A DNA stretch of 64,000 nt from a virus. Below the pieces are notes generated by a model. The model saw only the letters and a list, made by a program, of their open reading frames with translations, made no database searches and was not told the origin of the DNA. Position 1 is the first letter of the stretch; each line of letters opens with the position of its first letter. The translations under genes and the position numbers were made by a program. The stretch spans positions 1 to 64,000 of IMG/VR virus record IMGVR_UViG_3300027849_000012. One strand, 5' to 3'. Positions 7,688 to 23,243 of this stretch are shown here, piece after piece.

Positions 7688-8155
7688 TTATTTTAATAAA
7701 TTTTTAACGGTTCTGCCACCTATTCGGCAAGCTATGATACCGTTATAGTACTCTTCTGTGAGTAAAACCTCGCGCTCAAACTGTTCTTTAGCTTCCATAT
7801 ATGATAATTCTCCCTTTGCCTTACATAAGTGTAGGATTTCCCTGTAGAACGTATCTGGCCCCTGTGTTTCTAAATCAGCAACTAGGTGCTTATTCGACCC
7901 CCAATATGTTCTCCAATCGGATTCAACTAAAGTTTTCTTTCGCCTTTTCCTTTTCTTGGTTATCGGCAATGTTTTTTGACTCCAGAAGAATTTTTTCCCA
8001 ACATACTTTCGTGATGTTGCTCGGTTCGTTATCATGTATACCATTCCATACGCGTCGTCTGGACTGAACTCTTCGGGCGGCTGCCATTCGGATCCTTCGT
8101 ATTGCCATGGGCTATTACTCTTCTCGGTTGTAGTCAAAGTCGTCTTGATAGTCAT
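7688..8155 (-). CDS. GIY-YIG endonuclease-like protein
   Basis: 155 aa. The GIY-YIG core is recognisable as YGMVYMITN, then RKYVGKKFF (residues 36-57), with a basic stretch KKRKRRKK and a probable catalytic Glu in the YMEAKEQFE helix. Free-standing copies of this type are common beside nrd genes in T4-like marine phages and may be homing-related or host-DNA nucleases. The start at 8155 has GAGG 6 nt upstream; the start is uncertain because the reading frame stays open further upstream. Confidence 0.75.
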   Translation of the reverse strand: MTIKTTLTTTEKSNSPWQYEGSEWQPPEEFSPDDAYGMVYMITNRATSRKYVGKKFFWSQKTLPITKKRKRRKKTLVESDWRTYWGSNKHLVADLETQGPDTFYREILHLCKAKGELSYMEAKEQFEREVLLTEEYYNGIIACRIGGRTVKNLLK

Positions 8156-8306
8156 ACGCATCCTCATTAATATTGGACGCAATCCCACAGTTGGGGCAGA
8201 ACCGATCATCGGTATCCCATTCGTCCACTATAGATATATAGGACATTTTTAAGCAGTGGTCACAGGATACAATATTCCATGTTAAGGGTACATCAATATC
8301 CAACAC
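8115..8306 (-). CDS. Small zinc-ribbon protein
   Basis: About 63 aa. Two CxxC pairs (SCDHC and FCPNC) separated by 18 residues form a likely zinc ribbon, followed by an acidic tail. There is no ATG: GTG at 8306 or TTG at 8303 follows an AGGAG site that lies within the end of nrdC. Could be a nucleic-acid or RNA-polymerase binding adaptor; the role is unknown. Confidence 0.55.
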   Translation of the reverse strand: MLDIDVPLTWNIVSCDHCLKMSYISIVDEWDTDDRFCPNCGIASNINEDAYDYQDDFDYNREE

Positions 8307-8532
8307 AGTACTCCTCAAATTGGTTCCAGCCACCTATACTTTGGCCGTCAATAATAATTTGTGGGAATGTCCTAGCAGTAGGAAATAGTTCAAACAGCTG
8401 CTCTCTGGTAAAGTCGACTCCTAACTTAAATACTTTAAATTCTGCTTTATTAGAATCTTGTAACGATTCAGCCTTTCTAACTGCCATGTCACAGTATGGA
8501 CAGTTATCTTTGCTATAAATTGCAATTTGCAT
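8293..8532 (-). CDS. nrdC: Glutaredoxin (NrdC)
   Basis: 79 aa. Active-site CPYC at residues 11-14, the cis-proline motif TFPQIIIDG and the glutathione-side GGWNQF. Supplies electrons to the ribonucleotide reductase encoded just upstream (nrdA, nrdB). Full length for a phage glutaredoxin. Confidence 0.92.
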   Translation of the reverse strand: MQIAIYSKDNCPYCDMAVRKAESLQDSNKAEFKVFKLGVDFTREQLFELFPTARTFPQIIIDGQSIGGWNQFEEYCVGY

Positions 8533-8545
8533 ATTATCTCCTAAA

Positions 8546-9619
8546 TTATAAACTTAAAGTTGCCATGGTTTCGGTGGTAACATCTTGTTTTACACCACCG
8601 GTAACATAACTACTAATTTCGGTTTCCTGTGGCGCTACTTGAACATCACTACCTCCAATCCATTTTTGAGTCCACGGTAATGGGTTTGCTTGTGGTGTTG
8701 TGTATGGGCAAGGTAGTCCGATAGCTCTCATTCTTTTACATCCAATCCATTCAACATAGTCTGATAGAAGTTTACCATTCAAGCCTATCATTGACCCATC
8801 CTTAAATAGATACTCGGCCCATTCCTTTTCTTGCTCGATCACACTCACATATAATGCAATAGCATCCGATTCCATTTCCTTTGAAATTTTAACGTAGTCT
8901 GGGTCTTCCTGTAACAATTTCTTAATCATTATGGAAGTACCAGCAAGGTGTGTATTCTCATCCCTAGCAATAAATTTAATAATCTTAGCATTGCCTTCCA
9001 TTTTCTTTAACTCAGCAAATGCCCATGAACACGCAAAGGATACATAGAACCTAATACCTTCCAATGCATTAGCCGACAGTAGAGCCATCCATATAGCTCT
9101 CTTGTGATCCATTGTTTTAGTGGCCGTGTTATTACAAGACATTAGCTCGTCATAGTATTTGGCAATATGTTCGCCGCAATTCATTATTTCTGGGACATTT
9201 AACATCTCATCAAATATCACAGATGGGTTGGCATAGATGTTTCTAATGATGTGTGTATATGATCGAGAGTGTATTGTCTCAAAGAATGACCACGTTTCGA
9301 TCCAGTTCTCAACTTCGGGTAGTGATACTATGGGCAAAAATGCGAGATTAGGTGCTCTTCCCTGCACACTATCAAGGAGGATTTGACGTTTTAGATTAGA
9401 TGTAAATATGTGTTGTTCATGTTCGGTGAGACTTTCAAAGTCCTTCTTATCTTTTGAAATATCAACCTCTTCGGGTCTCCAAAAGAATCCAAGTTGTTTC
9501 TCCGTAATTTTATCTATCTGCGGATACTTTAGCTCATCAAATCTTTGTATATCAACCGGCTCGTCTAAAAACATATTTTTCTCAAGGTGTGACTTTTTAT
9601 TCTTCTTTAATACTGCCAT
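8546..9619 (-). CDS. nrdB: Ribonucleotide reductase class Ia beta subunit
   Basis: 357 aa. Carries the diiron site and tyrosyl radical that feed NrdA. Diiron carboxylate helices are visible (WSFFETIHSRSY, ARDENTHLAGT) together with the RNR2 pattern FACSWAF. The ATG at 9619 is preferred over a TTG at 9625; AGGAAAA lies upstream. Follows nrdA and a small gene; the nrdA-nrdB-nrdC order is as in many T4-like phages. Confidence 0.93.
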   Translation of the reverse strand: MAVLKKNKKSHLEKNMFLDEPVDIQRFDELKYPQIDKITEKQLGFFWRPEEVDISKDKKDFESLTEHEQHIFTSNLKRQILLDSVQGRAPNLAFLPIVSLPEVENWIETWSFFETIHSRSYTHIIRNIYANPSVIFDEMLNVPEIMNCGEHIAKYYDELMSCNNTATKTMDHKRAIWMALLSANALEGIRFYVSFACSWAFAELKKMEGNAKIIKFIARDENTHLAGTSIMIKKLLQEDPDYVKISKEMESDAIALYVSVIEQEKEWAEYLFKDGSMIGLNGKLLSDYVEWIGCKRMRAIGLPCPYTTPQANPLPWTQKWIGGSDVQVAPQETEISSYVTGGVKQDVTTETMATLSL

Positions 9620-9767
9620 AATCAATTTTTCCTGTTTGTCTGAGTCGTTTGTTATATGAGCGTTTGGCTCTCTTTATCATGTTTTTGTGAGGCTGAAGTA
9701 ATTTACGCCACCCTGTGTGTACGTCATATTCATCACCACCCTTTAGAGGGATTCTCTCTTTCTTCAT
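9597..9767 (-). CDS. Small basic conserved protein between nrdA and nrdB
   Basis: 56 aa, MKKERIPLKGGDEYDVHTGWRK at the start (cited to 20 residues: MKKERIPLKGGDEYDVHTGW), then a very basic helix with RAKRSYNKRLR. Its start overlaps the nrdA stop as ATGA and its end overlaps the nrdB start by 23 nt. The same GGDEYD motif followed by a basic tail occurs in T4-like marine phages, as I recall. Possibly RNA-binding; function unknown. Confidence 0.7.
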   Translation of the reverse strand: MKKERIPLKGGDEYDVHTGWRKLLQPHKNMIKRAKRSYNKRLRQTGKIDYGSIKEE

Positions 9768-12043
9768 ATCTTACAACTCTCGCAGTCTTCGTCGTCAATT
9801 TCAGTTATAGGCAGGTCAGGGATGTCTTCATGCTCACCAGCTCCATCATTGGTATTAAAGTAGTACAGTTGTTTCAGGCCGTATTTATATGCCGTGACTG
9901 TATCCTTAATCATCTCTGACATAGGAATCTTATTGTCTTCGTAGTGCGCTGGATTATATGAAGTATTAACACTAATGCCTTGATCAATATACTTCTGCAA
10001 AATAGCACAAATCTTTAAGTATCCATCCGGCGATGTTTGGTCCCACAGCAGATCATACTTATTCTTTAGGTGATGATACCCAGGAACTACTTGAGCCATG
10101 ACACCATCTTTGGACTGTTTATAGCTCACTAACGCACGTGGTGGTTCTATACCATTAGTGCTGTTAGAAATCTGTGCGGAAGTTTCGGCTGGCATTAAAG
10201 CCATGAGAGTCGAATTGCGGATACCATGTTCTATGAGTTGATTTCTAAGCTTGTTCCACGGTAATCGTTCATTATGCTCTATCAAATTATTTATCGCACT
10301 CTTATATGTATCAATTGGGAGAACTCCAGCAGCGTATTTTGTCTCGTTATTTAGTGGAATTTTACCCTTTTCTTCTGCCAGATTAGCTGAAGCTTTAATT
10401 AAATAGTAGCTCCACGCCTCTGCATATTGGTCGACTGTATCAAAGGCGCTCTCGTCATATTTCATGCCTCGCTTGGCTAAGAAGTAAGCTAAGTTGATAA
10501 TACCTATACCAAGAGGTCTACGGTTCATAGTTCCCCTCTCTGCAGCACCAATTGGATATGATTGGTAATCCAATAACTCATCCAGAGAACGGACGGCTAG
10601 ATCACAGTATTTTTCAAACTCAGATGGGTCGTTGATTAATCCCCAATTGATAGCAGATAGAGTACATAGTGATATTTCACCTGTGTCGTCGTTGAAGTTA
10701 TCCATGGGCGTTGTAGGTAAATCTATTTCACAACACAGATTACTCATCCTAATTGGAGCCTTCTCTGCAATGAAAGCACCATGGTCATTAGCGTGATCAA
10801 CATTCATTAAATAGATACGTCCAGTATCCTTTCGTTCTGTTAGAAACTGAGAGAATACTTCCAAGGCAGTTAACACTTTCTTCCTAATAGATTTGGTTTT
10901 TTCATATCTCTCGTATAATTTTTGAAACTTATCCTGATCGGCAAAGAAAGCTTCATATAAGCCTGGGACATCACTAGGGTCAAACAAGGTAATATTACCA
11001 CCAGTCAATAAGCGCTCATACATCAGTTTATTGAATTGGAATGCATAGTCCATATGCCTAACACGATTCTCTTCGGTTCCCTTATTATTCTTTAGAACAA
11101 CTAGATCTTCAAATTCATAATGCCAAACGGGTAGATATACTGTTGCTGCACCTCCTCTCACACCACCTTGACTGCACGACTTAACTGCAGATTGGAAGTA
11201 TTTAAGGAATGGGATTAATCCAGTGTGTACTATAGAACCATCGCCGACCTTCGAACCATTAGCTCTAACCGAACCAGCTCCGATGCCTATACCAGCCTTC
11301 TTACTGATATACTTTACTATTGAAGTGGCAGTAGCGTTAATAGAATCAAGACTGTCACCAGATTCAATAAGCACACAGCTCGAAAACTGACGGGTCGGCG
11401 TCCGTACACCAGCCATGATCGGCGTAGGAAGCGAGATATAGAATTGAGATATTGCATCATAATAATCCTTAACATATTTTAAACGGGTTTCTTTTGGGTA
11501 TTCGGCGAATAGTGTAGCGGAGACCATCATATAAAGCATCTGAGGAGTTTCATAGTGGGTCTTAGTTCTTCGATCTTGAACCAAATACTTTCCACGAAAT
11601 TGTTCCATACCAGCATAGGTAAAGGTATCATCCCGGTCATGTTTTATATGGGAATTAAGTTCGTGCAACTCGGATAGAGTGTACTTATCCATAATTTCAC
11701 TGTCATATACTCCTCGAGTTATATTAGCCTCAATGAGATCAGTCAACGTCCAAGGTTCATACTTCCCGTAAACCTCTTTCCGAAGTTTATAGTTGATTAG
11801 CCTAGCGGCTACAAATTGGTAATTAACAGTGTGTTCCGATATTAGTTCGGCCGCACTTTTGATTAGTAGTTCGTGTATGTCATACGCAGGAATCTTGTCG
11901 AACAACTGGATATTGGACTTTAGTTCTATCTCTGAGATAGATACTCCAGTTATATCCTTAGTCGCCCATTCAAGGACTTTGTGTACCTTTTCTAAGTTGA
12001 ATTCCTGAGTGTTGCCATCACGCTTTGTGACGTTGATTTGCAT
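9764..12043 (-). CDS. nrdA: Ribonucleotide reductase class Ia alpha subunit
   Basis: 759 aa. Reduces ribonucleoside diphosphates for phage DNA synthesis. Visible are the active-site cysteines in SSCVLIESGDS and NLCCEIDLP, the phosphate-binding motif MPAETSAQISNSTNG, and the C-terminal redox pair CESCKI. An N-terminal ATP-cone-like start (VTKRDGNTQEFNLEKV) is present. Continuous, with no intein or intron. ATG at 12043 is preferred over 12061. Driven by the promoter at 12086-12114. Confidence 0.95.
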   Translation of the reverse strand: MQINVTKRDGNTQEFNLEKVHKVLEWATKDITGVSISEIELKSNIQLFDKIPAYDIHELLIKSAAELISEHTVNYQFVAARLINYKLRKEVYGKYEPWTLTDLIEANITRGVYDSEIMDKYTLSELHELNSHIKHDRDDTFTYAGMEQFRGKYLVQDRRTKTHYETPQMLYMMVSATLFAEYPKETRLKYVKDYYDAISQFYISLPTPIMAGVRTPTRQFSSCVLIESGDSLDSINATATSIVKYISKKAGIGIGAGSVRANGSKVGDGSIVHTGLIPFLKYFQSAVKSCSQGGVRGGAATVYLPVWHYEFEDLVVLKNNKGTEENRVRHMDYAFQFNKLMYERLLTGGNITLFDPSDVPGLYEAFFADQDKFQKLYERYEKTKSIRKKVLTALEVFSQFLTERKDTGRIYLMNVDHANDHGAFIAEKAPIRMSNLCCEIDLPTTPMDNFNDDTGEISLCTLSAINWGLINDPSEFEKYCDLAVRSLDELLDYQSYPIGAAERGTMNRRPLGIGIINLAYFLAKRGMKYDESAFDTVDQYAEAWSYYLIKASANLAEEKGKIPLNNETKYAAGVLPIDTYKSAINNLIEHNERLPWNKLRNQLIEHGIRNSTLMALMPAETSAQISNSTNGIEPPRALVSYKQSKDGVMAQVVPGYHHLKNKYDLLWDQTSPDGYLKICAILQKYIDQGISVNTSYNPAHYEDNKIPMSEMIKDTVTAYKYGLKQLYYFNTNDGAGEHEDIPDLPITEIDDEDCESCKI

Positions 12044-12494: not shown

Positions 12495-13256
12495 TTACTT
12501 CCCCTTTTTGGCTAATTTCTTCAGTGCTTGTACATAGTTAGGCATTCCATGGTCTACTACACCATCAAAGAACTTCCAACGTTTCCATGATTGACCAATA
12601 CCCTTAAAGAAATCTCTCCATGATGGGCCATCGGCTTTATTACCATCACAATCAAAGTAAATCATTTCACCATGATGTACAAATCCTAACCATGCTGGTG
12701 GCATTCTACATACTATATCATTGTTATTCATCATTCGGTAATGATCACATTTGATATTCTTTATAAAGAGTGGTCCTCCGACTCTTGGCGAACCAAAGGT
12801 GAAGAGTTCTTTAGGCTGATAACGTGTGGCACTAATGGTAGCCATAGCAGCACCCAGACTATGCCCAGTAAAATATACATCTTTGGTTGCCTTTAGTTGA
12901 CTATTCTTATCTAGAATTTTTACAATTTCCATCCATACATCATCTACTTCTTGTTGGAAACCACCATGCACTTTACCACCGGCGACAGCACTATTCTTAA
13001 TAACTTTAAGATCAGCTAATACATCATTCAATTTAGCGGGTTCTGTACCTCTGAATGCAAACCAAAGGTTATGACTATCCTTAGTCACTAACACCTCAGC
13101 ACCATCAACACTGATTAAATTAGCATTGGTAAATCCTAATTTTTTACATGCTTCAGCTGCAGGTTTAGGGTCCATATATGCAATGGCTGACAGTTTGGCG
13201 GCCAGTTCTGCCCTTTGCCATACAGTCATTGTTTCTTGTATATTATTCGTCGCCAT
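12495..13256 (-). CDS. Class 3 lipase (alpha/beta hydrolase)
   Basis: 253 aa. A lipase_3 fold is shown by FAFRGTE, the nucleophile elbow GHSLGAAMA (Ser about 133), the FTFGSPRVGGP strand, a candidate Asp in NNNDIVCRMPP (about 180) and a candidate His in VVDHGMPNYV (about 236). There is no signal peptide. The gene overlaps the o-spanin gene end by 14 nt, so it may act on host membrane lipid during lysis (inference). The ATG at 13256 begins MATNNIQETM; an upstream in-frame ATG at 13301 lies inside the o-spanin gene and is unlikely. Confidence 0.85.
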   Translation of the reverse strand: MATNNIQETMTVWQRAELAAKLSAIAYMDPKPAAEACKKLGFTNANLISVDGAEVLVTKDSHNLWFAFRGTEPAKLNDVLADLKVIKNSAVAGGKVHGGFQQEVDDVWMEIVKILDKNSQLKATKDVYFTGHSLGAAMATISATRYQPKELFTFGSPRVGGPLFIKNIKCDHYRMMNNNDIVCRMPPAWLGFVHHGEMIYFDCDGNKADGPSWRDFFKGIGQSWKRWKFFDGVVDHGMPNYVQALKKLAKKGK

Positions 13257-13743
13257 CCTTTTTCTCCAGTTTAATTTCCACCCCAGCAGCTTTCTTATCA
13301 TTTATCGTCACATTCCTATAGTACACTATCACTTCACCCAGCTGATTGATATATCGTTTAATTTCTTGAGTATTGTATGACATTAGCTCATAATCAGCAA
13401 TTGTCATTGCTACGAATACAATATCACCACCATGCCTTTTCTTGATATCATCTACGAATTTGTCAAAATATGTGTGACCTTCTGGATACAAATCTTCACG
13501 GCCTAATTTACAATTGGACTTTTTAGTTTCAGGATCCTTTAAACACCCTTCGATGATTTTAGCATCTGAAACAACGAACCATTTGGGCTCTTTTAACTTT
13601 ATGGGTCTTGGTAGTACAGGTTGTACTATATCAATCTGAATAGGTTTAGTTACAATTTTAACTTCACGAGGTGCTTGTTGAAGTAAGCTACATCCACTAA
13701 TCGTTAAGAGCGCTAATACGCAAACTATCTTCTTGAATCGCAT
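13243..13743 (-). CDS. Outer-membrane lipoprotein, probable o-spanin
   Basis: 166 aa. The N-terminus is a lipoprotein signal (MRFKKIVCVLALLTISGC) with lipobox ISGC and lipidated Cys18, then a Pro-rich segment (PVLPRPIKLKEP). Its start lies inside the end of the upstream membrane protein gene (47-nt overlap), the typical nested/overlapping Rz/Rz1 arrangement. It would bridge to the i-spanin and disrupt the outer membrane at lysis, so the host is Gram-negative. Confidence 0.8.
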   Translation of the reverse strand: MRFKKIVCVLALLTISGCSLLQQAPREVKIVTKPIQIDIVQPVLPRPIKLKEPKWFVVSDAKIIEGCLKDPETKKSNCKLGREDLYPEGHTYFDKFVDDIKKRHGGDIVFVAMTIADYELMSYNTQEIKRYINQLGEVIVYYRNVTINDKKAAGVEIKLEKKDGDE

Positions 13744-14089
13744 TGAATACCTCCTTTGTTCCATTATTAATTCGCTTCTCCACTAATCCAGGTTTAGCAC
13801 TAGCAAGTTGGCCGAGATTGTGTCTACGGAAAACATCCATATACTCTGTCATTTGACTTTGATATACTTGGTTCTGAACTTGTTGACCTTGTAGAGCTTT
13901 AGAGGTAGTCTCTAAATTATCCTTTATAGCTTCTATCGTAGCTTTTTGTTCCTGTTCTCTCATATCCTGTGCTAGAATAACCTTAGCTTGTTCAGCTAAT
14001 TGCAATTTCATTGGTACTATAGAGAACTGATGATAAAAGTACCCTGATATACCCATTGCGATTATAATTCCTATCAATACTTTACTCAT
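13697..14089 (-). CDS. Inner-membrane coiled-coil protein, probable i-spanin
   Basis: 130 aa. One N-terminal transmembrane helix (VLIGIIIAMGISGYFY), then about 80 residues of predicted coiled coil rich in Gln, Glu and Lys, as in Rz-type i-spanins. It overlaps the downstream lipoprotein gene. Assignment rests on topology and gene pairing, not on sequence identity. Confidence 0.78.
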   Translation of the reverse strand: MSKVLIGIIIAMGISGYFYHQFSIVPMKLQLAEQAKVILAQDMREQEQKATIEAIKDNLETTSKALQGQQVQNQVYQSQMTEYMDVFRRHNLGQLASAKPGLVEKRINNGTKEVFNAIQEDSLRISALND

Positions 14090-14092
14090 AAT

Positions 14093-14362
14093 TTATCGCT
14101 TTGCTTTCACTGCTTCATAAGCTTGTGCCTGAATCGAGGCTAGATTTTGTTTCTGAGCTTGAGCTTCCTTTTTGTTAGCATTAGCTTGGCGCTTTAGCAA
14201 CATTCTTTCAACGAACTTCCGACCTTCTTTGGTCCGGCCGTCATAGGTTGCTTTCTTCTTTTTCTTAGGAGCAGCATCAGCTGGTAGTGATACTCCTGCA
14301 CCTGATACAGAGTTTGCCGCAGCATCCTCCCAGCAAGTATTGAATTCTTTGAACTCCTTCAT
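14093..14362 (-). CDS. Small basic virion-associated protein (possible capsid-targeting N-terminus)
   Basis: 89 aa. It starts MKEFKEFNTCWEDAAANSV, similar to the short N-terminal peptides of the neighbouring genes, then Lys-rich KKKKKATYDGRTKEGRKF and a Gln/Ala-rich helical tail. The start overlaps the preceding stop as ATGA. Likely a minor virion or internal protein expressed late; no enzymatic motif. Confidence 0.65.
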   Translation of the reverse strand: MKEFKEFNTCWEDAAANSVSGAGVSLPADAAPKKKKKATYDGRTKEGRKFVERMLLKRQANANKKEAQAQKQNLASIQAQAYEAVKAKR

Positions 14363-14943
14363 TTTTTTATTTCTCCAGTATTAAAGTATGCCACTTGATT
14401 AGTTTTGGCCAGATGTCCCTGATAGATGTTAGTACCAAACATGGTACCTATAGGTTTAGTGTGGTGTGATATTACTATCTTGTCGCCGGGTGTTCCTATT
14501 GCTTCACCCGTTAATTCACTAAACAGACTTTCAGTTAAGGTATATTGCCCTGGGTTCATGACACCATTCTTTTCAAAAAACACGGATTCGTTTAATGACT
14601 CATCAATATCTTCGAGTACTTCATCCAAAACCTTTTTAATTTGTTCTTCCGTTAGCCCTGTGTTTTCTTTAATTAGAAACAGTGCTGTAGCATAAGATGC
14701 CAACTTAGTTTTACCAAATGGCAACTTATTCAGTAGCCTTTTAACATTAAATACTAATCTATGAAATACTGTATAGACTTCTTTCTCTTCGGGTGTAGTA
14801 AGATCCCTACCTTTCTTAAGGTTCTTACCATCTTTATCAACGATGCCCTGTTCAAAAGCACCGGTCTTCTCCCACGGCGTTACTAACAACTTTAGGAATC
14901 TAAAGGCGTAGAATAAATCTGCTGTTCTTGAAATCAAACCCAT
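14359..14943 (-). CDS. Conserved virion-region protein
   Basis: 194 aa. It starts MGLISRTADLFYAFRFLKLL with an amphipathic or membrane-proximal helix, followed by a Lys-rich loop and a long acidic helix (VLDEVLEDIDESLNES). It overlaps both neighbours by TAATG or ATGA junctions. I recall relatives in T4-like marine phages in the same context with the next gene. Function unknown; a structural or packaging role is likely. Confidence 0.65.
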   Translation of the reverse strand: MGLISRTADLFYAFRFLKLLVTPWEKTGAFEQGIVDKDGKNLKKGRDLTTPEEKEVYTVFHRLVFNVKRLLNKLPFGKTKLASYATALFLIKENTGLTEEQIKKVLDEVLEDIDESLNESVFFEKNGVMNPGQYTLTESLFSELTGEAIGTPGDKIVISHHTKPIGTMFGTNIYQGHLAKTNQVAYFNTGEIKK

Positions 14944-15314
14944 TAAAGTTTCCTTAATGTATCTACTATGTTAATATCCATAGGTATCTCAACCTTGTAA
15001 TCTTCGGGCAAATAATGTAGTAACACTAAGAATGGTTTTATATAAGGCCAGTGGATATCCTCAATCTTATACTCTATCATTCTATTTGCCGACGGGATAC
15101 CAAATACGTTATAAATCACAATCAAGTGATTCAATATTAACCGTTCCTGTAAGTCCCCGGTTAATTCATAACGTCTCAGTAATCGCTTGAGGTACTTAAA
15201 TCTAGCTAAGTCCTCCTTAAACTCTTCTACATCAAGGCATTCAGGATTGGTGTAGTTTTGAGCTGCAAACATCTCAAAGTTTTTTCTATTCAATGTATCA
15301 AATATTTTCATCAT
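14943..15314 (-). CDS. Conserved virion-region protein
   Basis: 123 aa, all-helical. Contains ARFKYLKRLLRRYELTGDLQ followed by RLILNHLIVIYNVFG, a pattern I recall in T4-like marine phages beside the previous gene. The function is unknown. The second codon is also Met, so the start may be 15311. Ends in a TAATG junction with the next gene. Confidence 0.7.
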   Translation of the reverse strand: MMKIFDTLNRKNFEMFAAQNYTNPECLDVEEFKEDLARFKYLKRLLRRYELTGDLQERLILNHLIVIYNVFGIPSANRMIEYKIEDIHWPYIKPFLVLLHYLPEDYKVEIPMDINIVDTLRKL

Positions 15315-15342
15315 ATATTATATATAACCCGTAGGTTAGGTA

Positions 15343-16107
15343 CTAGTCTTCCTCATTATCGGATTCGTAGTTCTTGTCAACATAGTCAAAGAATTCCTTT
15401 TTCTTATCGCCTTCTAATTCAGCAGGAGATTTAACGCCAAACTTCTTTAGAGCCGACTGAAAGAATTTTTTATACTTCTCTTGCTTTGCAGAAGCTTCAG
15501 ACTGGACACTTTCATTAGCAAGTCTTAGAGCATCGTCTACTGCTTTAGCCTTTGAAAGACCTTTCTTTAACTTCTCGATCTTCTTAACAGCACCAGTCAT
15601 GTCACCGCCCATTTCTTTAGCAATTTTTACTGCTTTAGCTTCAAGAGGGTCACCAGCTTCTTTAACTTCCTTTTCGTCTTCGTCTTCGTCTTCGTGCTTA
15701 TCTTCTTCAACTTCATCCTTATCACCGTCTTTAGCTTTCTTCTTAGCAATAGCGGCTTTAAGGGCAGGAGGTAATTCACCTTCAGCAACTTCTTCTGACT
15801 CTTCTTTTACAACAGTTCCGTCTTCTTTATCACCAGACTTCTTAACCTTGTGCTTACCTTTAAACTCTTTCTCGCCTTTGGCTTTAGGCTCTTCGGGAGA
15901 TTCGTCAACATCAGGTGCTTCGTGGGTGTAACCTTTATCCATAAGGTCTTTGTGTTCAGCTTCATCTTTAGCTGAAACCTTCTTACCTTCAGGACTCCAC
16001 ATATCATGGGGATACGTGACTTCCTCTTCTTCTTTTATCTTTTTACCTTCAAGCACCGCACTGACAGAATCAGCAATGCTCATAGTAATATCATCATTTA
16101 ATTTCAT
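15343..16107 (-). CDS. Acidic, highly charged prohead/virion protein
   Basis: 254 aa, dominated by Glu, Asp and Lys in low-complexity runs, much like scaffold gp22. The C-terminal segment (YKKFFQSALKKFGVKSPAEL) looks like a compact helical domain found in T4-like marine phage virion proteins (recalled). Several L-x-E or V-x-E sites could be cut by prohead protease gp21. Late-gene block member; probably an internal or scaffold-associated protein. The start at 16107 (MKLNDDITMS) is preferred over 16143. Confidence 0.65.
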   Translation of the reverse strand: MKLNDDITMSIADSVSAVLEGKKIKEEEEVTYPHDMWSPEGKKVSAKDEAEHKDLMDKGYTHEAPDVDESPEEPKAKGEKEFKGKHKVKKSGDKEDGTVVKEESEEVAEGELPPALKAAIAKKKAKDGDKDEVEEDKHEDEDEDEKEVKEAGDPLEAKAVKIAKEMGGDMTGAVKKIEKLKKGLSKAKAVDDALRLANESVQSEASAKQEKYKKFFQSALKKFGVKSPAELEGDKKKEFFDYVDKNYESDNEED

Positions 16108-16117
16108 AGTAGTTCTC

Positions 16118-16417
16118 CTATTGTATGAAAAGCATTCCTGCAATAGCGGCAGCGGATGCTGTCAATACTATCCAGAATATCTTGTTTATAACATTTACGG
16201 TTGATTGGTTATCTCTAACCATAGCATCCAATGTCTCTATTCTATTTATAACTGCTAGAATTTGAGCTCCTTGCTGCTTTTGTATATCCATAAGAGTGGA
16301 TATCTTCTCTTCAGCTCTTGCAAGTGATATGATGGCATCAGACATAGAATCGAGCTTAGTTTCGATCCTATTAAGCCGACTCGATTGTTCATTTCTCTGA
16401 TCTTGTGCTGTTGACAT
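16118..16417 (-). CDS. Tail-anchored coiled-coil membrane protein
   Basis: 99 aa. An N-terminal polar coiled-coil region (RIETKLDSMSDAIISLARAEEK, residues about 16-37, quoted in part) is followed by a single C-terminal transmembrane helix (IFWIVLTASAAAIAGMLFI). The topology resembles small holin-like or phage-encoded membrane scaffolds, but no assignment is justified. It starts 29 nt inside the preceding gene. Confidence 0.6.
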   Translation of the reverse strand: MSTAQDQRNEQSSRLNRIETKLDSMSDAIISLARAEEKISTLMDIQKQQGAQILAVINRIETLDAMVRDNQSTVNVINKIFWIVLTASAAAIAGMLFIQ

Positions 16418-16682
16418 GTTTAAAAACCCTACATTTTAATGGGGTGGCCCCTTTTATTAATCTATGATATTCAAAACTTTTAATATCAAATACCATTCCT
16501 TTTTTCAATAACCAAGGGAGACAATTTTGGACTTGGAATTGCCAACCCTCACCACTCATTATCTCGATTTCTCTATCTTCTGCATCTCGGTGCCAGACGT
16601 ATTCCGAGTCACTTGCATCCGGATTAAATTCTCTTATATCCGCATCTTCCCAGTACGGTTTACCAAAAGTAAGATCCACCAC
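16389..16682 (-). CDS. Cupin-like small protein
   Basis: 97 aa. Motifs YVWHRDAEDREIEI, SGEGWQFQ and FEYHRLIKG suggest a small cupin-type beta-barrel with metal-binding His/Glu, known from T4-like marine phages. Substrate unknown. The start is GTG at 16682 or 16679, overlapping the previous gene by about 20 nt. It has no capsid-targeting-like N-terminus, unlike several neighbours. Confidence 0.6.
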   Translation of the reverse strand: MVDLTFGKPYWEDADIREFNPDASDSEYVWHRDAEDREIEIMSGEGWQFQVQNCLPWLLKKGMVFDIKSFEYHRLIKGATPLKCRVFKHVNSTRSEK

Positions 16683-17028
16683 CTTTTAGCCCTAATTGTT
16701 TGGCGTATTTCGGAAGGCGACAAGCCCAATACCCAGCCTTGGTTTTGTCATTCTTCGTGTCGCATTGATGTCTAGCAGCAAAACTCTTTGCTGCACCCTT
16801 ATCGTTAATCTTAGCAGTAAGTCCAGTTGTGTCTCCAAACTGAATCTTTATAACATTACCTTTATCGTTCTTAACATAGACATAATATTTCTTAGTGCCG
16901 CCCCTCTTAGGCTGATTCAATTCAACATCTTCATCTTTAGTAGCTTCAATCATCGGCTGTTCTAAGGGAACGTGGTGTCCCTCATAGATTCCGAATCTTT
17001 CATCAATATGTTCTAAAAAACTATGCAC
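16660..17028 (-). CDS. Probable internal/virion protein with capsid-targeting-like N-terminus
   Basis: 122 aa from a GTG start at 17028, just 4 nt after the previous stop. This start gives MHSFLEHIDERFGIYEG, matching the M-x-x-F-x-E-x pattern of the neighbours with a likely gp21 site after IYE. The rest is a conserved domain: KKYYVYVKNDKGNVIKIQFG, then a Cys/His-containing ARHQCDTKNDKTKAGYWAC and the ending GGGSYFW. The domain is recurrent in T4-like marine phages. An in-frame ATG at 17091 is a possible alternative start but would hide the pattern. Confidence 0.65.
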   Translation of the reverse strand: MHSFLEHIDERFGIYEGHHVPLEQPMIEATKDEDVELNQPKRGGTKKYYVYVKNDKGNVIKIQFGDTTGLTAKINDKGAAKSFAARHQCDTKNDKTKAGYWACRLPKYAKQLGLKGGGSYFW

Positions 17029-17032
17029 ATTT

Positions 17033-17719
17033 TTATCCAAACTTCGCTGCAAACTTTTTAAGTGGGATAGTATCGAATCCACCAAACTCATCTTCAACCC
17101 TATATGATAGTTTACCACCACTAATTAGTGGTTTTGCACTATACAATTTACCATCTTTAGCTCTTAGGCCCGTGACTTCAGACCCCTTTATAGAAACACC
17201 TTTCATCTTCGGAGCTTTAGCTTCGTCAACTTCAACTGATTCTTTAACTATTTTGATATCTTTTCCAGGCACTCCGTTGGCTTCCTTACCATCATCTAAA
17301 TCAATATCGAAGGACTTATCAGCACCTTTAAACTTGCCATTGTCCATTTGTCTAATGATGCCTTCTTTTCCAGCAAAGCGACCTTTAGTAATTTTCACTC
17401 GGCTGCCTAATTTTTTTGCTTCTTCAACTTCAACCGATTCTTTTACATTCTTACCCTTTTTAATTATATCTTGCGCAGTTCTTTTATCGAACCCCAAGCC
17501 TAAGTCATCGGTATCTGTTATCCAGTTCATCAGTTCTTTTTCAGAACCGGTAACTTTAAGGGTTCCTTTCTTTTTGTTATAACCGTCTACATACACACCA
17601 AAGTCAGCCTTGATATCACCGGACAATTCTCTATCTGGTCGATCCTGATCCCAGTCCACTTCAACCTGTTTATAGGCTTCGGGTAATATGCTTTGTCTAA
17701 CTTCATTAAATTTTTTCAT
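17033..17719 (-). CDS. Probable internal protein with KOW-like domain and repeated protease-site linkers
   Basis: 228 aa. It starts MKKFNEVRQSILPEAYKQ, a capsid-targeting-like peptide with LPE/A as probable gp21 site. Two near-identical linkers follow, VKESVEVEEAKK and VKESVEVDEAKA, separating a KOW-like segment (GSRVKITKGRFAGKEG) from a C-terminal beta-rich domain ending in PLKKFAAKFG. The linkers look like further processing sites, so the product may be cut into two or three mature peptides inside the head. Confidence 0.65.
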   Translation of the reverse strand: MKKFNEVRQSILPEAYKQVEVDWDQDRPDRELSGDIKADFGVYVDGYNKKKGTLKVTGSEKELMNWITDTDDLGLGFDKRTAQDIIKKGKNVKESVEVEEAKKLGSRVKITKGRFAGKEGIIRQMDNGKFKGADKSFDIDLDDGKEANGVPGKDIKIVKESVEVDEAKAPKMKGVSIKGSEVTGLRAKDGKLYSAKPLISGGKLSYRVEDEFGGFDTIPLKKFAAKFG

Positions 17720-18153
17720 TTCTTTATAGTCCTCACTATTTTGCTTGTTAGCATTTTAATAGCAGTCATATAGGCAAAACCTAGTCCGAAAACTGCATGG
17801 AATGTATGATTCTTTTCTATTTCTGATTTAGGTCCTAACTTCTTGGTCCAGTTATCTACCCACTCGCCTTTGTATCTTAATACAGCATGGGATACTTTCC
17901 ACTTACTCGGGCCAACTAAACAAATACCAGCTTGATGGGTGATTAACATCCACCACATTTTAAGGTGTGATTCTCCACATAGTCTATATAGAACAGACAA
18001 TGCATAGTCTTCACAATCACCTACATACTTACCTGCTGCGTCTTCTGAATAGATAATCTTCCAAGCATCTTTCATACCATACTGCTCTGAATCCAATCTA
18101 TACTTCCATTTAGCATTGAAAGCTTTTACTATCTTCTGGTCGTCTTTATTCAT
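17716..18153 (-). CDS. Transglutaminase-like cysteine peptidase family protein
   Basis: 145 aa. GDCEDYALSVLYRL is the Cys motif of bacterial transglutaminase-like cysteine proteinases, KVSHAVLRYKGEWVDNW supplies the His and the Asn/Asp partner. A hydrophobic segment lies near the C-terminus (FHAVFGLGFAYMTAIKML). Could cleave or crosslink protein in the host envelope or virion. The ATG at 18153 overlaps the previous stop as ATGA; an in-frame ATG at 18174 is unlikely. Confidence 0.7.
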   Translation of the reverse strand: MNKDDQKIVKAFNAKWKYRLDSEQYGMKDAWKIIYSEDAAGKYVGDCEDYALSVLYRLCGESHLKMWWMLITHQAGICLVGPSKWKVSHAVLRYKGEWVDNWTKKLGPKSEIEKNHTFHAVFGLGFAYMTAIKMLTSKIVRTIKK

Positions 18154-18818
18154 TTTTTCTGGCCCTTTATCCATTTTACTGCTATAGCATTTTCTGGAGC
18201 CTTAGAGGCCCAGTTTTTTATATCCTTGAATGCTTCTAATGTTGAGGTTTCTATATCTGAACCCTCAGAGTTATCAAGAATAATCATACGGTTACGGAAC
18301 AAACCCTGGAATTTACCAATGTTCTTTTGAACATCTTTCCACATTTTACCTACCATATCATCTGGTAGAGAACGTGGTCGGTTATTATTTCTAGTCATTG
18401 CCGTTTCTAAATCTGTGTTTACAAATATCATGTGCACAGAATATCCTAATTTTCGTACCTCATCAACTTGTTTCTTAATCTTTGCGTAGTCTTTACCAGT
18501 ACCATCTACTACGATACCCATTCTACCCTCTAAAGCTCTGGTCATTATTTTACCAGTTAATGCTTTAGCGCCTGCTCTTACTGCCTGACCTTGCGCGGAT
18601 GCAATATCCTCTGGGTCAGTAGTAAGGCCTGCCTTTTTCAAGCCCTTTTCAAAAGCATCATCAGAGTTAATTAATCTAAACCCTAGTGCTTTCAGAGCAG
18701 TCTTACCTACAACAAATGACTTACCCGAACCCGGGCCGCCTGCAAGAAATACTGCTTTAAATATAGAAGGATCATTAACACCTTCCATTAAATTAAAATG
18801 TTCTTTGAATGTATCCAT
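18150..18818 (-). CDS. P-loop kinase (zeta-toxin-like) with capsid-targeting-like N-terminus
   Basis: 222 aa. The first residues MDTFKEHFNLMEG match the pattern of neighbouring putative capsid-targeted proteins (site after LME). A kinase domain follows with Walker A AGGPGSGKSF, DGTGKDY and a helical lid with RNNNRPRSL. It belongs to the AAA_33/zeta-toxin-like small-molecule kinases; the substrate (nucleotide, sugar or RNA end) is unknown. Its start codon overlaps the preceding stop. Confidence 0.75.
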   Translation of the reverse strand: MDTFKEHFNLMEGVNDPSIFKAVFLAGGPGSGKSFVVGKTALKALGFRLINSDDAFEKGLKKAGLTTDPEDIASAQGQAVRAGAKALTGKIMTRALEGRMGIVVDGTGKDYAKIKKQVDEVRKLGYSVHMIFVNTDLETAMTRNNNRPRSLPDDMVGKMWKDVQKNIGKFQGLFRNRMIILDNSEGSDIETSTLEAFKDIKNWASKAPENAIAVKWIKGQKK

Positions 18819-19039
18819 TATTTAAGATCGTATCTGTAAGTTTTGCCTTTGGCCTGTTTGTCCTTAGACACTTTATACTTAACATGTCTTGCTAGGTTAT
18901 TAACAAATTCAACATCACCCTTCTTTAATGCGGCCGCAATTACTGGTATAAGTTTCACTGCAATAGATTTAGCAATGTCATTATCAGCCATTACTAATGG
19001 TGCCTCTTCTATTCCTGTTTGCTCTAAAAATGTTTTCAT
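18818..19039 (-). CDS. Small internal protein with capsid-targeting-like N-terminus
   Basis: 73 aa. Starts MKTFLEQTGIEEAPLV, very close to T4 internal-protein leader peptides (MKTYQEF...), with IEE/A as likely gp21 cleavage site. The mature part would be a basic helical domain ending in KTYRYDLK. Overlaps both neighbours. Function unknown. Confidence 0.72.
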   Translation of the reverse strand: MKTFLEQTGIEEAPLVMADNDIAKSIAVKLIPVIAAALKKGDVEFVNNLARHVKYKVSKDKQAKGKTYRYDLK

Positions 19040-20082
19040 TTCTTACCTTGGGCAGATTTAATTTCAGCATCAGTTGGAGCATCCGGATGTCCCTTAGGGT
19101 TCATCTTTTTACCGCTCTTCTTTTTCTTACGGATATTGTCCCACAACCCTTTCTCATTCATGTCTTTTGTCATATCACTAAATGATTTGAGTACATTTCG
19201 TTGTGGCGTTTCAGATGGGGTAACTGTCTTATACTTGTCAGTGACTTTCTTTTCACCAACTCCACCACAATTCTCAACCAATTCAACTTGATCTAGCCAC
19301 ACTCTTTTCTTCCAAGCGCCGAACTCAACCACTAGATAATTAGTCCCACAAACTAGAATGTTACCAACATCTGATGTTTCCTTAAGCACTACTTCATCAC
19401 CTACCTTGAATAGTTTACCCTCAACATAGTCCTCTCGGGTATCTGATACCTTAGGTAGTTCAATGTGCTCTCTCTTGGCTTCTGATGTAAGACCCATTCC
19501 CTTTCTTACTGCTTTATATAATTCTTTAGGATCTGCGCCGGAAGGAACACCTTTAGCAAATGTTTGAATTGAACCTTCACCTGCAGCTTGTCGCATTTTT
19601 GATGCGGACATACCTGAAACACCTTCTGCATCGGGATCTCTTTCTCCGGCAGAGATGACTTTAATTCCATCTTTGAATTCATAAAACCCGTGCCGAGATT
19701 TAACTCCGTTATACTTGTTTAATAGAATCTCGAATTCGTTAACTCTATCAGACCCAGCAACCATTTGGACTGCAGTATAACCTTGGTCGTATAATTTAGT
19801 AGCAATATCCATAACGTGTCTGACATCATTATCTGCCATAACACTTCTAGCATGTTTAGGGAACATCTTTCGCACGAACTTGATTTTATCTTTAAATGAT
19901 AGAGGATTCTTTTTAGCATCCTGAGACTTGGAAGCATATATGCGGTATGAGCCACTGGATACTTCTTTCAACTTATTGAAAAGTTTTTCATGGCCACTTG
20001 TTGGGGGATTAAACCTGCCAAAAACAAACGTGATTTCACCCTTTGCTTCTGCGATATATTCACTAAAACCTTTTATACTCAT
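19036..20082 (-). CDS. NMNAT-like nucleotidyltransferase with capsid-targeting-like N-terminus
   Basis: 348 aa. After a leader-like MSIKGFSEYIAEA (IAE/A site), FVFGRFNPPTSGHEKL is the HIGH-type nucleotidyltransferase motif and VSGMSASKMRQA the ISxTxxR-type motif, as in nicotinamide-nucleotide and pantetheine adenylyltransferases. A beta-rich C-terminal domain (KVGDEVVLKE...VVEFGAWKKRVW) follows. Substrate is not decidable. Known as a conserved T4-like marine phage protein; here it lies in the late virion-protein block. Confidence 0.75.
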   Translation of the reverse strand: MSIKGFSEYIAEAKGEITFVFGRFNPPTSGHEKLFNKLKEVSSGSYRIYASKSQDAKKNPLSFKDKIKFVRKMFPKHARSVMADNDVRHVMDIATKLYDQGYTAVQMVAGSDRVNEFEILLNKYNGVKSRHGFYEFKDGIKVISAGERDPDAEGVSGMSASKMRQAAGEGSIQTFAKGVPSGADPKELYKAVRKGMGLTSEAKREHIELPKVSDTREDYVEGKLFKVGDEVVLKETSDVGNILVCGTNYLVVEFGAWKKRVWLDQVELVENCGGVGEKKVTDKYKTVTPSETPQRNVLKSFSDMTKDMNEKGLWDNIRKKKKSGKKMNPKGHPDAPTDAEIKSAQGKK

Positions 20083-20456
20083 TATATAATTCCTTCGGAA
20101 GCATCTTTATTCTTCTGCAGCTTGGCCTTATCTGCAGCTTTGATTTTAGGCAGTAACTTCTTAGCTATTGCCGCTATCTTACCTTTCATTTTATCTAGTT
20201 TCTTTTCTAGTGCTTCACGCGCTGGAAAGGATAACTCGTCCTTACTCTTACCTTTTAGGATCTTTTGTGTCAGAAGGTTTCTGGCAGCTTTAATGGCACG
20301 GGATTTTAATTGTTCGGGGGTAGCTGCACGCTTGGCAGCCTTTTTTCGGCCCAGGGCTATTTTACCTTTATTCTTCCTAAAGGTAGCCTTAGCTTTTTGG
20401 CGCTGGGCCATTGACATGGCTTCAGTAACGCCTGAGTGCTCTTTGAATGTTAACAT
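20082..20456 (-). CDS. Very basic internal protein with capsid-targeting-like N-terminus
   Basis: 124 aa. Starts MLTFKEHSGVTEAMSM (VTE/A site), then an extremely Lys/Ala-rich helical region (for example GRKKAAKRAATPEQLKSR). Composition resembles histone-like or T4 internal proteins that bind packaged DNA. Its stop (TAA) shares a nucleotide with the next gene's start (20082). It would be expected inside the capsid. Confidence 0.75.
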   Translation of the reverse strand: MLTFKEHSGVTEAMSMAQRQKAKATFRKNKGKIALGRKKAAKRAATPEQLKSRAIKAARNLLTQKILKGKSKDELSFPAREALEKKLDKMKGKIAAIAKKLLPKIKAADKAKLQKNKDASEGII

Positions 20457-20473
20457 AGTATCCTCGGTTCCAT

Positions 20474-21718
20474 TTAGTTGGGGCTATCCCAACCTTTTAT
20501 AATATCTTTGCTAAAGTTGTTTGCAGAAAATTCCATTCTGTCCACAAGTTTAACAGCTCCACCTTCCATACGATCTATAGCTACAAAACCTTCGGGGTTG
20601 GTAACCTTAAATCCGGATTTAGTCTTAACAAACGTAGATATTTTACTTAGTTTGTTAAGTTTATTTATAATAATTAATTTACTATCCACCACACTATTCT
20701 GTAAATCGAAGACTTTTTGTAAGTTAGATTGGTTGGAACTACTAAAAAACTTCAACAATTCATCACGTTTTGTAATTTGAGCAGATTTACCTTTTTGAGA
20801 AGAACGCTTATCTATCTCCTTTGCGTATCGGTCTTTAACAAACTTTATTAGACCTGTAACATGAGATTTAGTGTTGGTTATCCTTGCGCCGTCGCGCACC
20901 ATTTTATTATTCCACACATTAATAACTAAGTTTAATTCTTTATTGGCCTGTAGCTCTTTCAGAATTGGAGCTGATACTTGTCTAAACAGTTTACCAGCTT
21001 CAGATAAATGTGCGTTTATACTAGCAGTTTCATCTGCTGTGAGTGTTGCCGTACCGGATAAATCGTCCAGTGTAGCATCTTGCATCCATACGTCGTTAGA
21101 TGATTTCAATTTAGGCACAATTAACTTACCAAAGGAAGCTTGCATTGTTTCAAACGAGTCCCCAGTATAAATTGTGTGCCACACAACCCCGATCTTAGCT
21201 CTTTCAATTGTTTTGGCGAGATCAGATCCCTTAGGCACTGCATAAGCAATAGTATTGGGATGAAATACAATGTGTTTGACTCCATCAATTATTTCAGTCT
21301 TGAGGTCACTCTTATCAAACATGAAGTCACCTTGGATTACACCCTTAACACCTAAAGGTTTGATATAATCATATGCCATTTTTAATTTCTTGGATAAGTC
21401 ACCTGAAGTATCTGCGTCTATGTCAGCATGAGACTTATATATTTTAGGGTTAGCATTAAAGATTCCTTTCTTAGCAACAAAGAATTCTCCATCAGATGGA
21501 TCTTCTCCAGCAAAGACTGCCGGTGCTCCGTCCCATTTAACCGTAACGTCAACCGAGGACTTTGAACTACCCGATAACATATCTCGTAATGATCTCAGAG
21601 CTAGAATGGCTTGCCTGGCACCACTTACTCCACCATCAATAATTAAATCCTCAATATGGGTCATGTGGCCGGTGTTTTTACTAGCGGCTTCGTGCAAGTG
21701 TCCTTTTAAAGTTTTCAT
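20474..21718 (-). CDS. DUF6267-like protein with ligase-type KxDG motif
   Basis: 414 aa. The N-terminus MKTLKGHLHEA resembles the neighbouring leaders (LHE/A site). VTVKWDGAPAVFAG contains the KxDG motif of the ATP/GTP-dependent nucleic acid ligase superfamily, and GVIQGDFMFD and GFVAIDR may be later motifs. Proteins of this type are known from T4-like marine phages as structural or hypothetical. If active, it would be a nucleotidyltransferase or ligase delivered in the capsid. Confidence 0.7.
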   Translation of the reverse strand: MKTLKGHLHEAASKNTGHMTHIEDLIIDGGVSGARQAILALRSLRDMLSGSSKSSVDVTVKWDGAPAVFAGEDPSDGEFFVAKKGIFNANPKIYKSHADIDADTSGDLSKKLKMAYDYIKPLGVKGVIQGDFMFDKSDLKTEIIDGVKHIVFHPNTIAYAVPKGSDLAKTIERAKIGVVWHTIYTGDSFETMQASFGKLIVPKLKSSNDVWMQDATLDDLSGTATLTADETASINAHLSEAGKLFRQVSAPILKELQANKELNLVINVWNNKMVRDGARITNTKSHVTGLIKFVKDRYAKEIDKRSSQKGKSAQITKRDELLKFFSSSNQSNLQKVFDLQNSVVDSKLIIINKLNKLSKISTFVKTKSGFKVTNPEGFVAIDRMEGGAVKLVDRMEFSANNFSKDIIKGWDSPN

Positions 21719-23184
21719 TTATACATACTCTTAAATTCTTTTGTCATTACAGCATTGAAATTGGGGGCCGATGTAAATGAACCCTTATATCTTAATATGA
21801 TATTACATATAGTCACCGTACCAATTTTTAAATCGAACTTTAAGTTAGCAGCCTTTGCACCAGGTTCGAATGCTTGTTTAGCACCTGGTGTAAATATGAT
21901 TGCCGGTTCACCACCAGAGAATAGCTCATCTAATTGACTAGTCACTGAGTCGATGTTTTTATATTCACCTGTCTCAACTACTACTCCTTTTTTAGGGCCG
22001 TAGTCTCCTATTCCTGTTACTAAGGTAAAATCAAAATCAACCTTTTGCAAGTCCTTTAAGTCAGCTTTAAATATTAACTGCACCAACTGGTTTGCAATGA
22101 GGTCACTATTATCAATTATAGTCTTACCCATAGTGGCGAATAATGTTCTCTTCCCCTTTAATACTCTATTGATTAAAGCATTAGGAATTCTTTGGATATA
22201 CTGTTTCCAGTTTTTATTTGTGGGTTTATCTTTCTTCATATCCTTAATCATATCTGGAGATAGGACCTTAAGTCTAGCAGCTAATTTAATAACATGCAAG
22301 TAGAAATCTCCAGCATCTTGTTCTATACCAGCTCGGACTTTTATTAACTCAGGTGAACTAGTTAACATACTAGTGAATGCTTTATTGATCAAGGTAGGAT
22401 CAGTTTCTGTTGTTCGTTTCTTTTTCTTTAGTGAAACCCCAAGATATTTCTTGCCCTTGCTTAATATGAAATCAGATGAATTGAAATCCTTCATGCCATA
22501 TTTGGTCACCTGAAAGTCAGTGACATCATCATCCCAAGCTTGGCCTGTGAGATAAGCGATATCGGAGTTATCCCAACCATTATCATGTATCACCTTAGCA
22601 GCTGATATGGCTTGACACATATTACCATAGTCGCCCACTAATGAATCAATTTGGCCTTGTTTAGCACCTTTGACATTTTTTAATTTACTACCGACAAGTT
22701 CAATTAGTAAATCCATTTCATTAGAATTAGTAGGAACAGTCTTGATAACATTAGAGGGAAGAGTGCATAGAATTGCAGTCATTAATTCGTTTGGATCATC
22801 TCCAAAGGAACTTTGTTTACCCGAGGGCCGTACATTCACATAGATGGTTTTACTTAAACCGTCATATTGGATTGCATAATCCTTTTCTTTTCTGGATCCC
22901 GGGACTTTGCCTCTGGACAATTCGGGGTGAGCATCAATAAGTTGGTTGGCTAGAGCAGTAAACTTCTCTCTACTCTTATCATCAATTAGTTGTGATATGG
23001 CTAACCTTGAGCCAGTTTGTTTCTTAGGTCTTGTATCATATTCGATTTCAGAGTTAATTGATCCAATAGCATCGTCTATATCTGATAACAAGTCCAGGGC
23101 AAACTTCTTTTCATTGCCCGAAAATTCGAGATTCTGTAAATCTTCGCGGACTTGTTCTCTTCTGTGTTGAACAAACTTTTTCAT
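21715..23184 (-). CDS. Large conserved virion-block protein, possible PD-(D/E)XK-like fold
   Basis: 489 aa, first gene of the late block. N-terminus MKKFVQHRREQVREDLQNLE is helical and starts like the neighbouring leaders. Around the middle, DFNSSDFILSKGKKYLGVSL followed by KKKKR has the spacing of a degenerate restriction-endonuclease-like D-(S)xK core; this is only a suggestion. The remainder is unrecognised. It overlaps the next gene as ATGA. Confidence 0.65.
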   Translation of the reverse strand: MKKFVQHRREQVREDLQNLEFSGNEKKFALDLLSDIDDAIGSINSEIEYDTRPKKQTGSRLAISQLIDDKSREKFTALANQLIDAHPELSRGKVPGSRKEKDYAIQYDGLSKTIYVNVRPSGKQSSFGDDPNELMTAILCTLPSNVIKTVPTNSNEMDLLIELVGSKLKNVKGAKQGQIDSLVGDYGNMCQAISAAKVIHDNGWDNSDIAYLTGQAWDDDVTDFQVTKYGMKDFNSSDFILSKGKKYLGVSLKKKKRTTETDPTLINKAFTSMLTSSPELIKVRAGIEQDAGDFYLHVIKLAARLKVLSPDMIKDMKKDKPTNKNWKQYIQRIPNALINRVLKGKRTLFATMGKTIIDNSDLIANQLVQLIFKADLKDLQKVDFDFTLVTGIGDYGPKKGVVVETGEYKNIDSVTSQLDELFSGGEPAIIFTPGAKQAFEPGAKAANLKFDLKIGTVTICNIILRYKGSFTSAPNFNAVMTKEFKSMYK

Positions 23185-23235: not shown

Positions 23236-23243
23236 TATTTATA
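23236..23243 (-). promoter_or_regulatory. T4-type late promoter (TATAAATA)
   Basis: TATAAATA on the minus strand, 52 nt before the first gene of the putative internal-protein block (23184). It supports late, virion-type expression of that block. Confidence 0.65.

Follow-up and report, generated by a model that had tools for sequence, protein, structure and literature searches.

The 64,000-nucleotide window analyzed here (bases 1–64000 of the 69,261-base IMG/VR virus record IMGVR_UViG_3300027849_000012) harbors a block of minus-strand genes at positions 14093–23184. Eight or more of the encoded proteins, which have nothing else in common, start with what reads as a T4-like capsid address tag. 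It is very likely that the block represents T4-like virion cargo, i.e., proteins that would be targeted to the prohead by their leaders, freed by the gp21-type protease, and injected with the DNA to act early. The head genes of the window are of the T4 type (portal, gp21-type protease, gp22 scaffold, and gp23; phrog_207, 237, 138, and 213), and the source is an uncultured T4-like marine phage, for which a search of named phages for near-identical DNA gave no match.

T4-Like Leaders in the Block

In the T4 internal protein (IP) IPIII, targeting depends on residues 4 and 7 and processing on residues 8 and 10, with Asp at residue 10 stopping processing but not targeting, and gp21 cleaves behind L/I-x-E (PMC9026906). 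The leaders of the T4 proteins read MKTYQEFIAE↓A and MKTFKEF...ITE↓A (MKTFKEFTSTTTPVSTITE↓A; the arrow marks the cut). The initial annotation had noted similar short peptides at the start of several block genes and had likened them to these capsid-targeting sequences. All of the quoted N-termini were found at 14093–23184 on the minus strand, and comparison with the leaders of IPI–IPIII showed a shared pattern, with residues 4 and 7 and the L/I-x-E matching the genetics of IPIII. The processing residues 8 and 10 were also found, with deviating spacing in some members; MKTLKGHLHE↓A, MSIKGFSEYIAE↓A, and MKTFLEQTGIEE↓A fit the IPIII pattern given small spacers. The site I-S-E/A noted earlier at residue 58 of gp23 was likewise recovered, as ISE↓AAA.

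A leader profile consisting of a targeting block, a spacer, and a cleavage block was trained on the leaders of T4 IPI–III and of S-CREM2 virion proteins, with no window sequence, and its cut-off of 12.5 corresponded to p < 0.01 on shuffled N-termini. The cut-off was exceeded by 8 of the 15 open reading frames (ORFs) of the block vs 2 of the 86 elsewhere (Fisher 1.2e-6), the latter two being a doubtful plus-strand ORF and the gp21 protease itself. A regular expression built from T4 only matched 4/15 block ORFs and 1/86 others (p 0.0015). Both p-values rest on the block limits of the initial annotation and are hence to some degree post hoc; stronger evidence comes from comparing whole families across relatives. 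The orthologues for this test came from ~320 IMG/VR loci plus three isolate genomes, and the leader frequency was 0.45–0.90 in seven block families as against 0–0.33 in 41 other families. It was highest for the 489-amino-acid (aa) protein (0.90, n = 31), followed by the phrog_7595 domain protein (p7595; 0.76, n = 41), the 73-aa protein (p73; 0.75), the DUF6267 protein (0.59, n = 128), the very basic protein and the kinase (0.57 each), and the cytidylyltransferase (0.45).

Six block genes (BTLCP, p97, coil99, acidic, p123, and p194) carry no IP-type leader; hence, the block is mixed, and the reading that all of its genes encode cargo was dropped. The leader block proposed at first is real, and the 489-aa protein (MKKFVQHRREQVRE↓D) probably belongs to it too.

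Persistence of the Leader among Relatives

The leader residues change among orthologues, and the pattern F..F/H..[LI]xE persists. All 18 kinase orthologues, with identities as low as 42%, keep E12 and G13 at the predicted cut site, and the residues before it vary. The p7595 sequence MHSFLEHIDERFGIYEG begins at a GTG in the window (17028), a start that is plausible because many orthologues use ATG at the same place (MHSFLEHI[DE]ERFG[IL]YEG). Many distant orthologues of the 489-aa protein were alignable only from residue 14, and several had other leaders (MRGFKTFLPE↓D). In the AlphaFold2 (AF2) model of the DUF6267 protein, residues 1–17 are disordered and the remainder is well folded. The DUF6267 proteins of S-CRM01, P-HM2, S-PRM1, and S-PM2 are without the leader and start a few residues at most from the HLEHLED segment. 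Since these cyanophage proteins begin at or just past the predicted mature end, the leader is a detachable add-on, which supports a targeting role.

The 89-aa protein p89 (MKEFKEFNTCWEDA) had been quoted as one of eight leaders with predicted cleavage; the pattern holds for the others, but p89 was dropped as a normal cleavage site owing to Asp at the residue before the cut (P1). Its orthologues keep WED↓AAANSV with the Asp, and the leader frequency of the family is 0.00. As an Asp at residue 10 of T4 IPIII permits targeting and stops processing, p89 is perhaps targeted but left uncut.

Predicted Late Expression of the Block

The T4-type late promoter element TATAAATA occurs 22 times in the window against 8.1 expected, and it is located ≤160 nucleotides upstream in 63 of 68 orthologous blocks against 3.7 expected. 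A late promoter had been placed ahead of the block earlier, and the copy listed in Table 1 agrees with this; the block is predicted to be late-expressed. Several other TATAAATA sites lie ∼20–60 nucleotides upstream of head and tail gene starts and are usable as a map of late units.

Virion Proteins with the Same Leader

According to the S-CREM2 report (PMC10665884, Table 3), the non-structural virion proteins of this cyanophage include gp6 (SAM hydrolase), gp12, gp13, gp14 (APH-like kinase), gp15, gp136, gp154 (cytidylyltransferase), and gp155, with gp154 detected in CsCl-purified virions. S-CREM2 gp154 is the orthologue of the cytidylyltransferase-like protein of the window (34% identity, E 4e-37) and carries the leader MKNFSSFLTE↓A. 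The same leader type begins gp6, gp13, gp14, gp136, and gp154, and several of the starts among the non-structural virion proteins read MKDFDSFLEE↓F, MKDLHSFLTE↓Q, MKRFDAFLTE↓E, MQTFSMFFSE↓D, and MKNFSSFLTE↓A. The T4-only regular expression matched 5/28 non-structural virion proteins vs 2/167 non-virion proteins of S-CREM2 (p 0.0007). Cytidylyl/NMN-adenylyltransferases are reported from S-SM1, S-SCSM1, and S-CBWM1 virions and a protein kinase from S-CRM01 virions; in the S-CRM01 genome, a string of genes bears the same leaders, one of these genes encoding a kinase (MISFDQFLSE↓K). The cyanophage virion cytidylyltransferase (T4-GC190)/NMNAT of S-SM1, S-CREM2, and S-SCSM1 is an orthologue of the block protein at 19036–20082, and the accessible literature on it describes no leader or cleavage.

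The 'Cas9-like' nuclease of S-CREM2 virions (7704–10313) has a leader-like LRFASFMAE↓A behind an N-terminal extension, and the gene in the corresponding place of S-CRM01 has LSLDSFIKE↓A. The start may be annotated too early.

Proposed Route of the Cargo and Alternatives

As in T4, an N-terminal leader of ∼10–16 residues (an aromatic-type pair two residues apart, then hydrophobic-x-Glu) would insert the cargo into the prohead core. The gp21-type protease would cut behind Glu to release the mature enzyme or domain and would also separate domains that lie in tandem by cutting at [LIV]-x-E↓[AG] sites within the chain. DNA would then be packaged around the freed cargo, which would enter the next host with it, and the NMNAT-like transferase, the polynucleotide kinase (PNK)/zeta-like kinase, the DUF6267 nucleotidyltransferase candidate, and the KOW and basic proteins may act before phage gene expression. 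Cleavage, injection, and an early host-directed role are what we infer from these data, and an enzyme kit is probably injected with the phage DNA.

Several observations weigh against this account. DUF6267 without the leader in several cyanophages suggests that not every relative packages it, and the orthologues of some cargo in HTVC008M and Melnitz carry reduced leaders. A profile built from T4 and window leaders separated virion from non-virion proteins of S-CREM2 weakly (Mann–Whitney p 0.03; threshold test not significant). The leader subtype seems to vary between clades, as this profile does poorly on S-CREM2, and a single universal leader is not claimed. The case for virion presence draws on orthologues in S-CREM2 rather than on this phage or a close relative, and co-purification could not be excluded by the S-CREM2 authors (PMC10665884). 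The shared leader argues for true cargo despite this caveat.

The proteins could also be packaged and cut, yet serve as prohead core or DNA-condensing filler instead of being injected as enzymes that act on a host target. One block protein is very basic (+24) and one is acidic (−19), and gp21 sites are also present in T4 core proteins. However, predicted catalytic motifs are conserved in the kinase and in the DUF6267 protein (in the latter, invariant K61, D63, G64, and E376), which implies selection for enzymatic activity, and a filler role is considered unlikely. It is still less probable that the leader proteins are late cytoplasmic enzymes that co-purify with virions, as raised by the S-CREM2 authors, their N-terminal likeness being a regulatory or stability tag. 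Leaderless DUF6267 homologues would fit such a view, but the signal coincides with the residues genetically mapped in T4 IPIII, it is shared by several unrelated virion-detected S-CREM2 proteins, and the kinases keep the Glu-Gly pair though the preceding letters change. Chance is hardly credible, although a loose M..F...[LI]xE pattern is frequent in Glu-rich phage proteins and matches a few non-virion proteins in every genome, in view of the shuffled-N-terminus null, the block enrichment, and the family-level contrast.

Predicted Enzymes of the Proposed Cargo

The NMNAT-like transferase, the P-loop kinase, and the very basic protein of the initial annotation were all recovered. The kinase scored 48.6 bits with Pfam Zeta_toxin (cut-off 22.3), contains the Walker A motif GGPGSGK, and had T4 PNK as the top profile match among all T4 proteins (prob 94); it is predicted to be a zeta-toxin/PNK-type P-loop kinase. 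The protein encoded at 19036–20082 matched CTP_transf_like at its cut-off, and its FNPPTSGH carries the (H/T)xGH motif, by which it is assigned as a putative NMNAT/cytidylyltransferase-type nucleotidylyltransferase. The earlier 'ligase-like' label of the DUF6267 protein is based on motifs, with no significant fold or profile match: the invariant K61-x-D63-G64, QGD 129–131, E376-G377, and K390 are suggestive of a candidate ligase-type nucleotidyltransferase. Foldseek of its AF2 model against PDB gave no significant match (ligase adenylation domains recur at E 0.7–4), and its profile run against all T4 proteins did not rank the T4 ligases top and gave no profile match to them. PDB sequence-profile searches with DUF6267 and with the 489-aa protein gave no match. 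The AF2 model of the latter (predicted local distance difference test, pLDDT, 81) had no significant Foldseek match; it leans to Pol-beta nucleotidyltransferases (TUTases, SpoT, and DncV) at E 0.025–0.2, which is not claimed as its identity. By eye, its invariant D238 and S251-L-K253 look like a PD-(D/E)xK-type motif. A reasonable guess is a kit for nucleotide, RNA-end, or NAD metabolism, injected against early host defence, in line with T4 IPI–III, which block restriction enzymes (PMC12373910).

Modules Joined at Predicted Protease Sites

The KOW protein has predicted sites after residues 14 (leader), 100 (VEE↓A), and 166 (VDE↓A) and is predicted to be a small polyprotein. In relatives, its C-terminal module is found behind p89-like or other parts via VEE↓A, and the p73 module E↓[AG]PLVM is attached to other N-terminal parts. 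In some phages, the C-terminal domain of the acidic protein has a gene of its own, with a start of the MKTFRELRE type; in others, it is a VKE↓A or VDE↓A segment inside a protein. Proteins of 1,000–1,200 aa built from such modules are present in Melnitz-like phages. A junction test compared internal homology boundaries in non-redundant proteins with [LIVM]-x-E-[AGS] over 2000 simulations. Such a site lay at 61 of the 228 boundaries, where 22.8 were expected (0/2000 simulations), and after de-duplication at 23 of 103, where 9.8 were expected, with Asp and Lys control motifs at expectation. A scrambled control, [LIVM]E.[AGS], was enriched before de-duplication (28 vs 14) but not after (10 vs 6.8).

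A kinase relative in the Agrobacterium phage Atu_ph07 is fused behind another domain via VTE↓GVND, the same site that closes the leader of the window kinase (LME↓GVND). Ten consecutive genes of this phage (39484–49507) begin with M[KR]W..L.E and contain YRG[MI], one being fused to a zeta/PNK-type kinase. By gene count from the record start, the array is in or beside coding sequences (CDS) 31–76, a cluster rich in virion proteins (PMC6102473). The YRGM genes resemble ADP-ribosyltransferases by eye, and the first domain was not called by Pfam. On balance, we lean toward the view that marine T4-like phages build the injected payload from interchangeable small modules, with the maturation protease cutting tagged polyproteins into effectors inside the capsid and recombination at the sites swapping modules.

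Comparison with Known Systems

The block resembles T4 IPI, IPII, and IPIII in the short N-terminal leader pattern, the predicted L/I-x-E cut and late expression, and the otherwise unrelated mature parts. T-even ip genes have previously been found by the leader (PMC12373910). In contrast to the T4 IPs, the block cargo is larger and enzymatic (NMNAT-like, kinase, and DUF6267), position 7 of its leader is often His and the spacer extended, and some of its proteins are predicted polyproteins with internal sites. T4 gp57B (gene 57B, 13953–14411), which adjoins ipI, has a leader-like start MMEFKDFSTGLYVAAKFSE↓L (p 0.009) and may be an internal protein that has gone unnoticed.

Polyvalent proteins (Iyer et al., 2017; PMC5512222) likewise have many enzymatic domains that are proposed to be injected with DNA and that shuffle. 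They are long single chains with proposed processing by embedded peptidase domains, whereas the block has separate small proteins or short polyproteins with a capsid-targeting sequence and head-protease sites. As the cargo genes of the window are mostly single-domain, they do not combine disparate enzymatic domains in one polypeptide as polyvalent proteins do. In phiKZ-like giant phages (SPN3US, phiKZ, and 201phi2-1), the accessible literature describes a prohead protease that cuts after Glu in many head or ejected proteins, sometimes at several sites per propeptide; its rule is S/A-x-E, the long propeptides are unlike the short IP-type leader of the block, and domain swapping at sites was not found in that literature.

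Features of the Block and Its Surroundings

Table 1. Positions of the block genes and related features in the window.
Feature	Coordinates	Strand	Remarks
Late promoter element TATAAATA	23236–23243	−	T4-type; 52 nucleotides upstream of first block gene
489-aa protein, phrog_3060	21715–23184	−	First block gene; leader MKKFVQHRREQVRE↓D
DUF6267 protein	20474–21718	−	Leader MKTLKGHLHE↓A; Pfam DUF6267 E 5e-102
Very basic 124-aa protein	20082–20456	−	Net charge +24; leader MLTFKEHSGVTE↓A
Cytidylyl/NMN-adenylyltransferase-like protein	19036–20082	−	Leader MSIKGFSEYIAE↓A; phrog_395 E 3e-68
73-aa protein (p73)	18818–19039	−	Leader MKTFLEQTGIEE↓APLVM
Zeta-toxin/polynucleotide-kinase-type P-loop kinase (predicted)	18150–18818	−	Leader MDTFKEHFNLME↓G; Pfam Zeta_toxin
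KOW-domain protein	17033–17719	−	Leader MKKFNEVRQSILPE↓A; further predicted sites inside
phrog_7595 domain protein (p7595)	16660–17028	−	Starts at GTG; leader MHSFLEHIDERFGIYE↓G; further predicted site MIE↓A, residue 28
Acidic protein (−19)	15343–16107	−	No IP-type leader; predicted sites VLE↓G (20), VAE↓G (109), VKE↓A (150)
89-aa protein (p89)	14093–14362	−	Leader-like MKEFKEFNTCWED↓A, Asp at P1
gp21-type prohead protease	58423–59079	−	Leader-like start MRLISEYHDSDLEVITE↓A; phrog_207 E 4e-77; leader score p 0.0076
Major capsid protein gp23	55930–57258	−	ISE↓A at residue 58; phrog_138 E 1e-150

A BTLCP-type transglutaminase-like cysteine peptidase (17716–18174; under the Pfam cut-off) is located within the cargo block and has no leader. 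Just downstream of the block (12495–14089), a lipase-like protein with an FTGHSLGAAMA motif stands beside an Rz-like spanin (phrog_739), and the pair is perhaps a lysis module with a lipase.

Implications

Marine phages of the T4 type occur in great abundance, and the many 'hypothetical' proteins and odd enzymes in their virions have been blamed on possible contamination. If the cargo reading is true, the leader would tell true cargo from contamination among virion 'hypothetical' proteins and odd enzymes (NMNAT, kinases, and nuclease-like proteins). It also yields exact expected neo-N-termini, by which existing mass-spectrometry data could answer what marine T4-like phages inject. The site-punctuated fusions suggest a route for recruiting new payload domains, and the leaders may be tried as tags to load proteins into the heads of non-enteric phages. 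Judged from sequence comparison, it is well supported that the internal-protein system of T4 extends to marine T4-like phages, in which the predicted cargo is enzymatic and modular.

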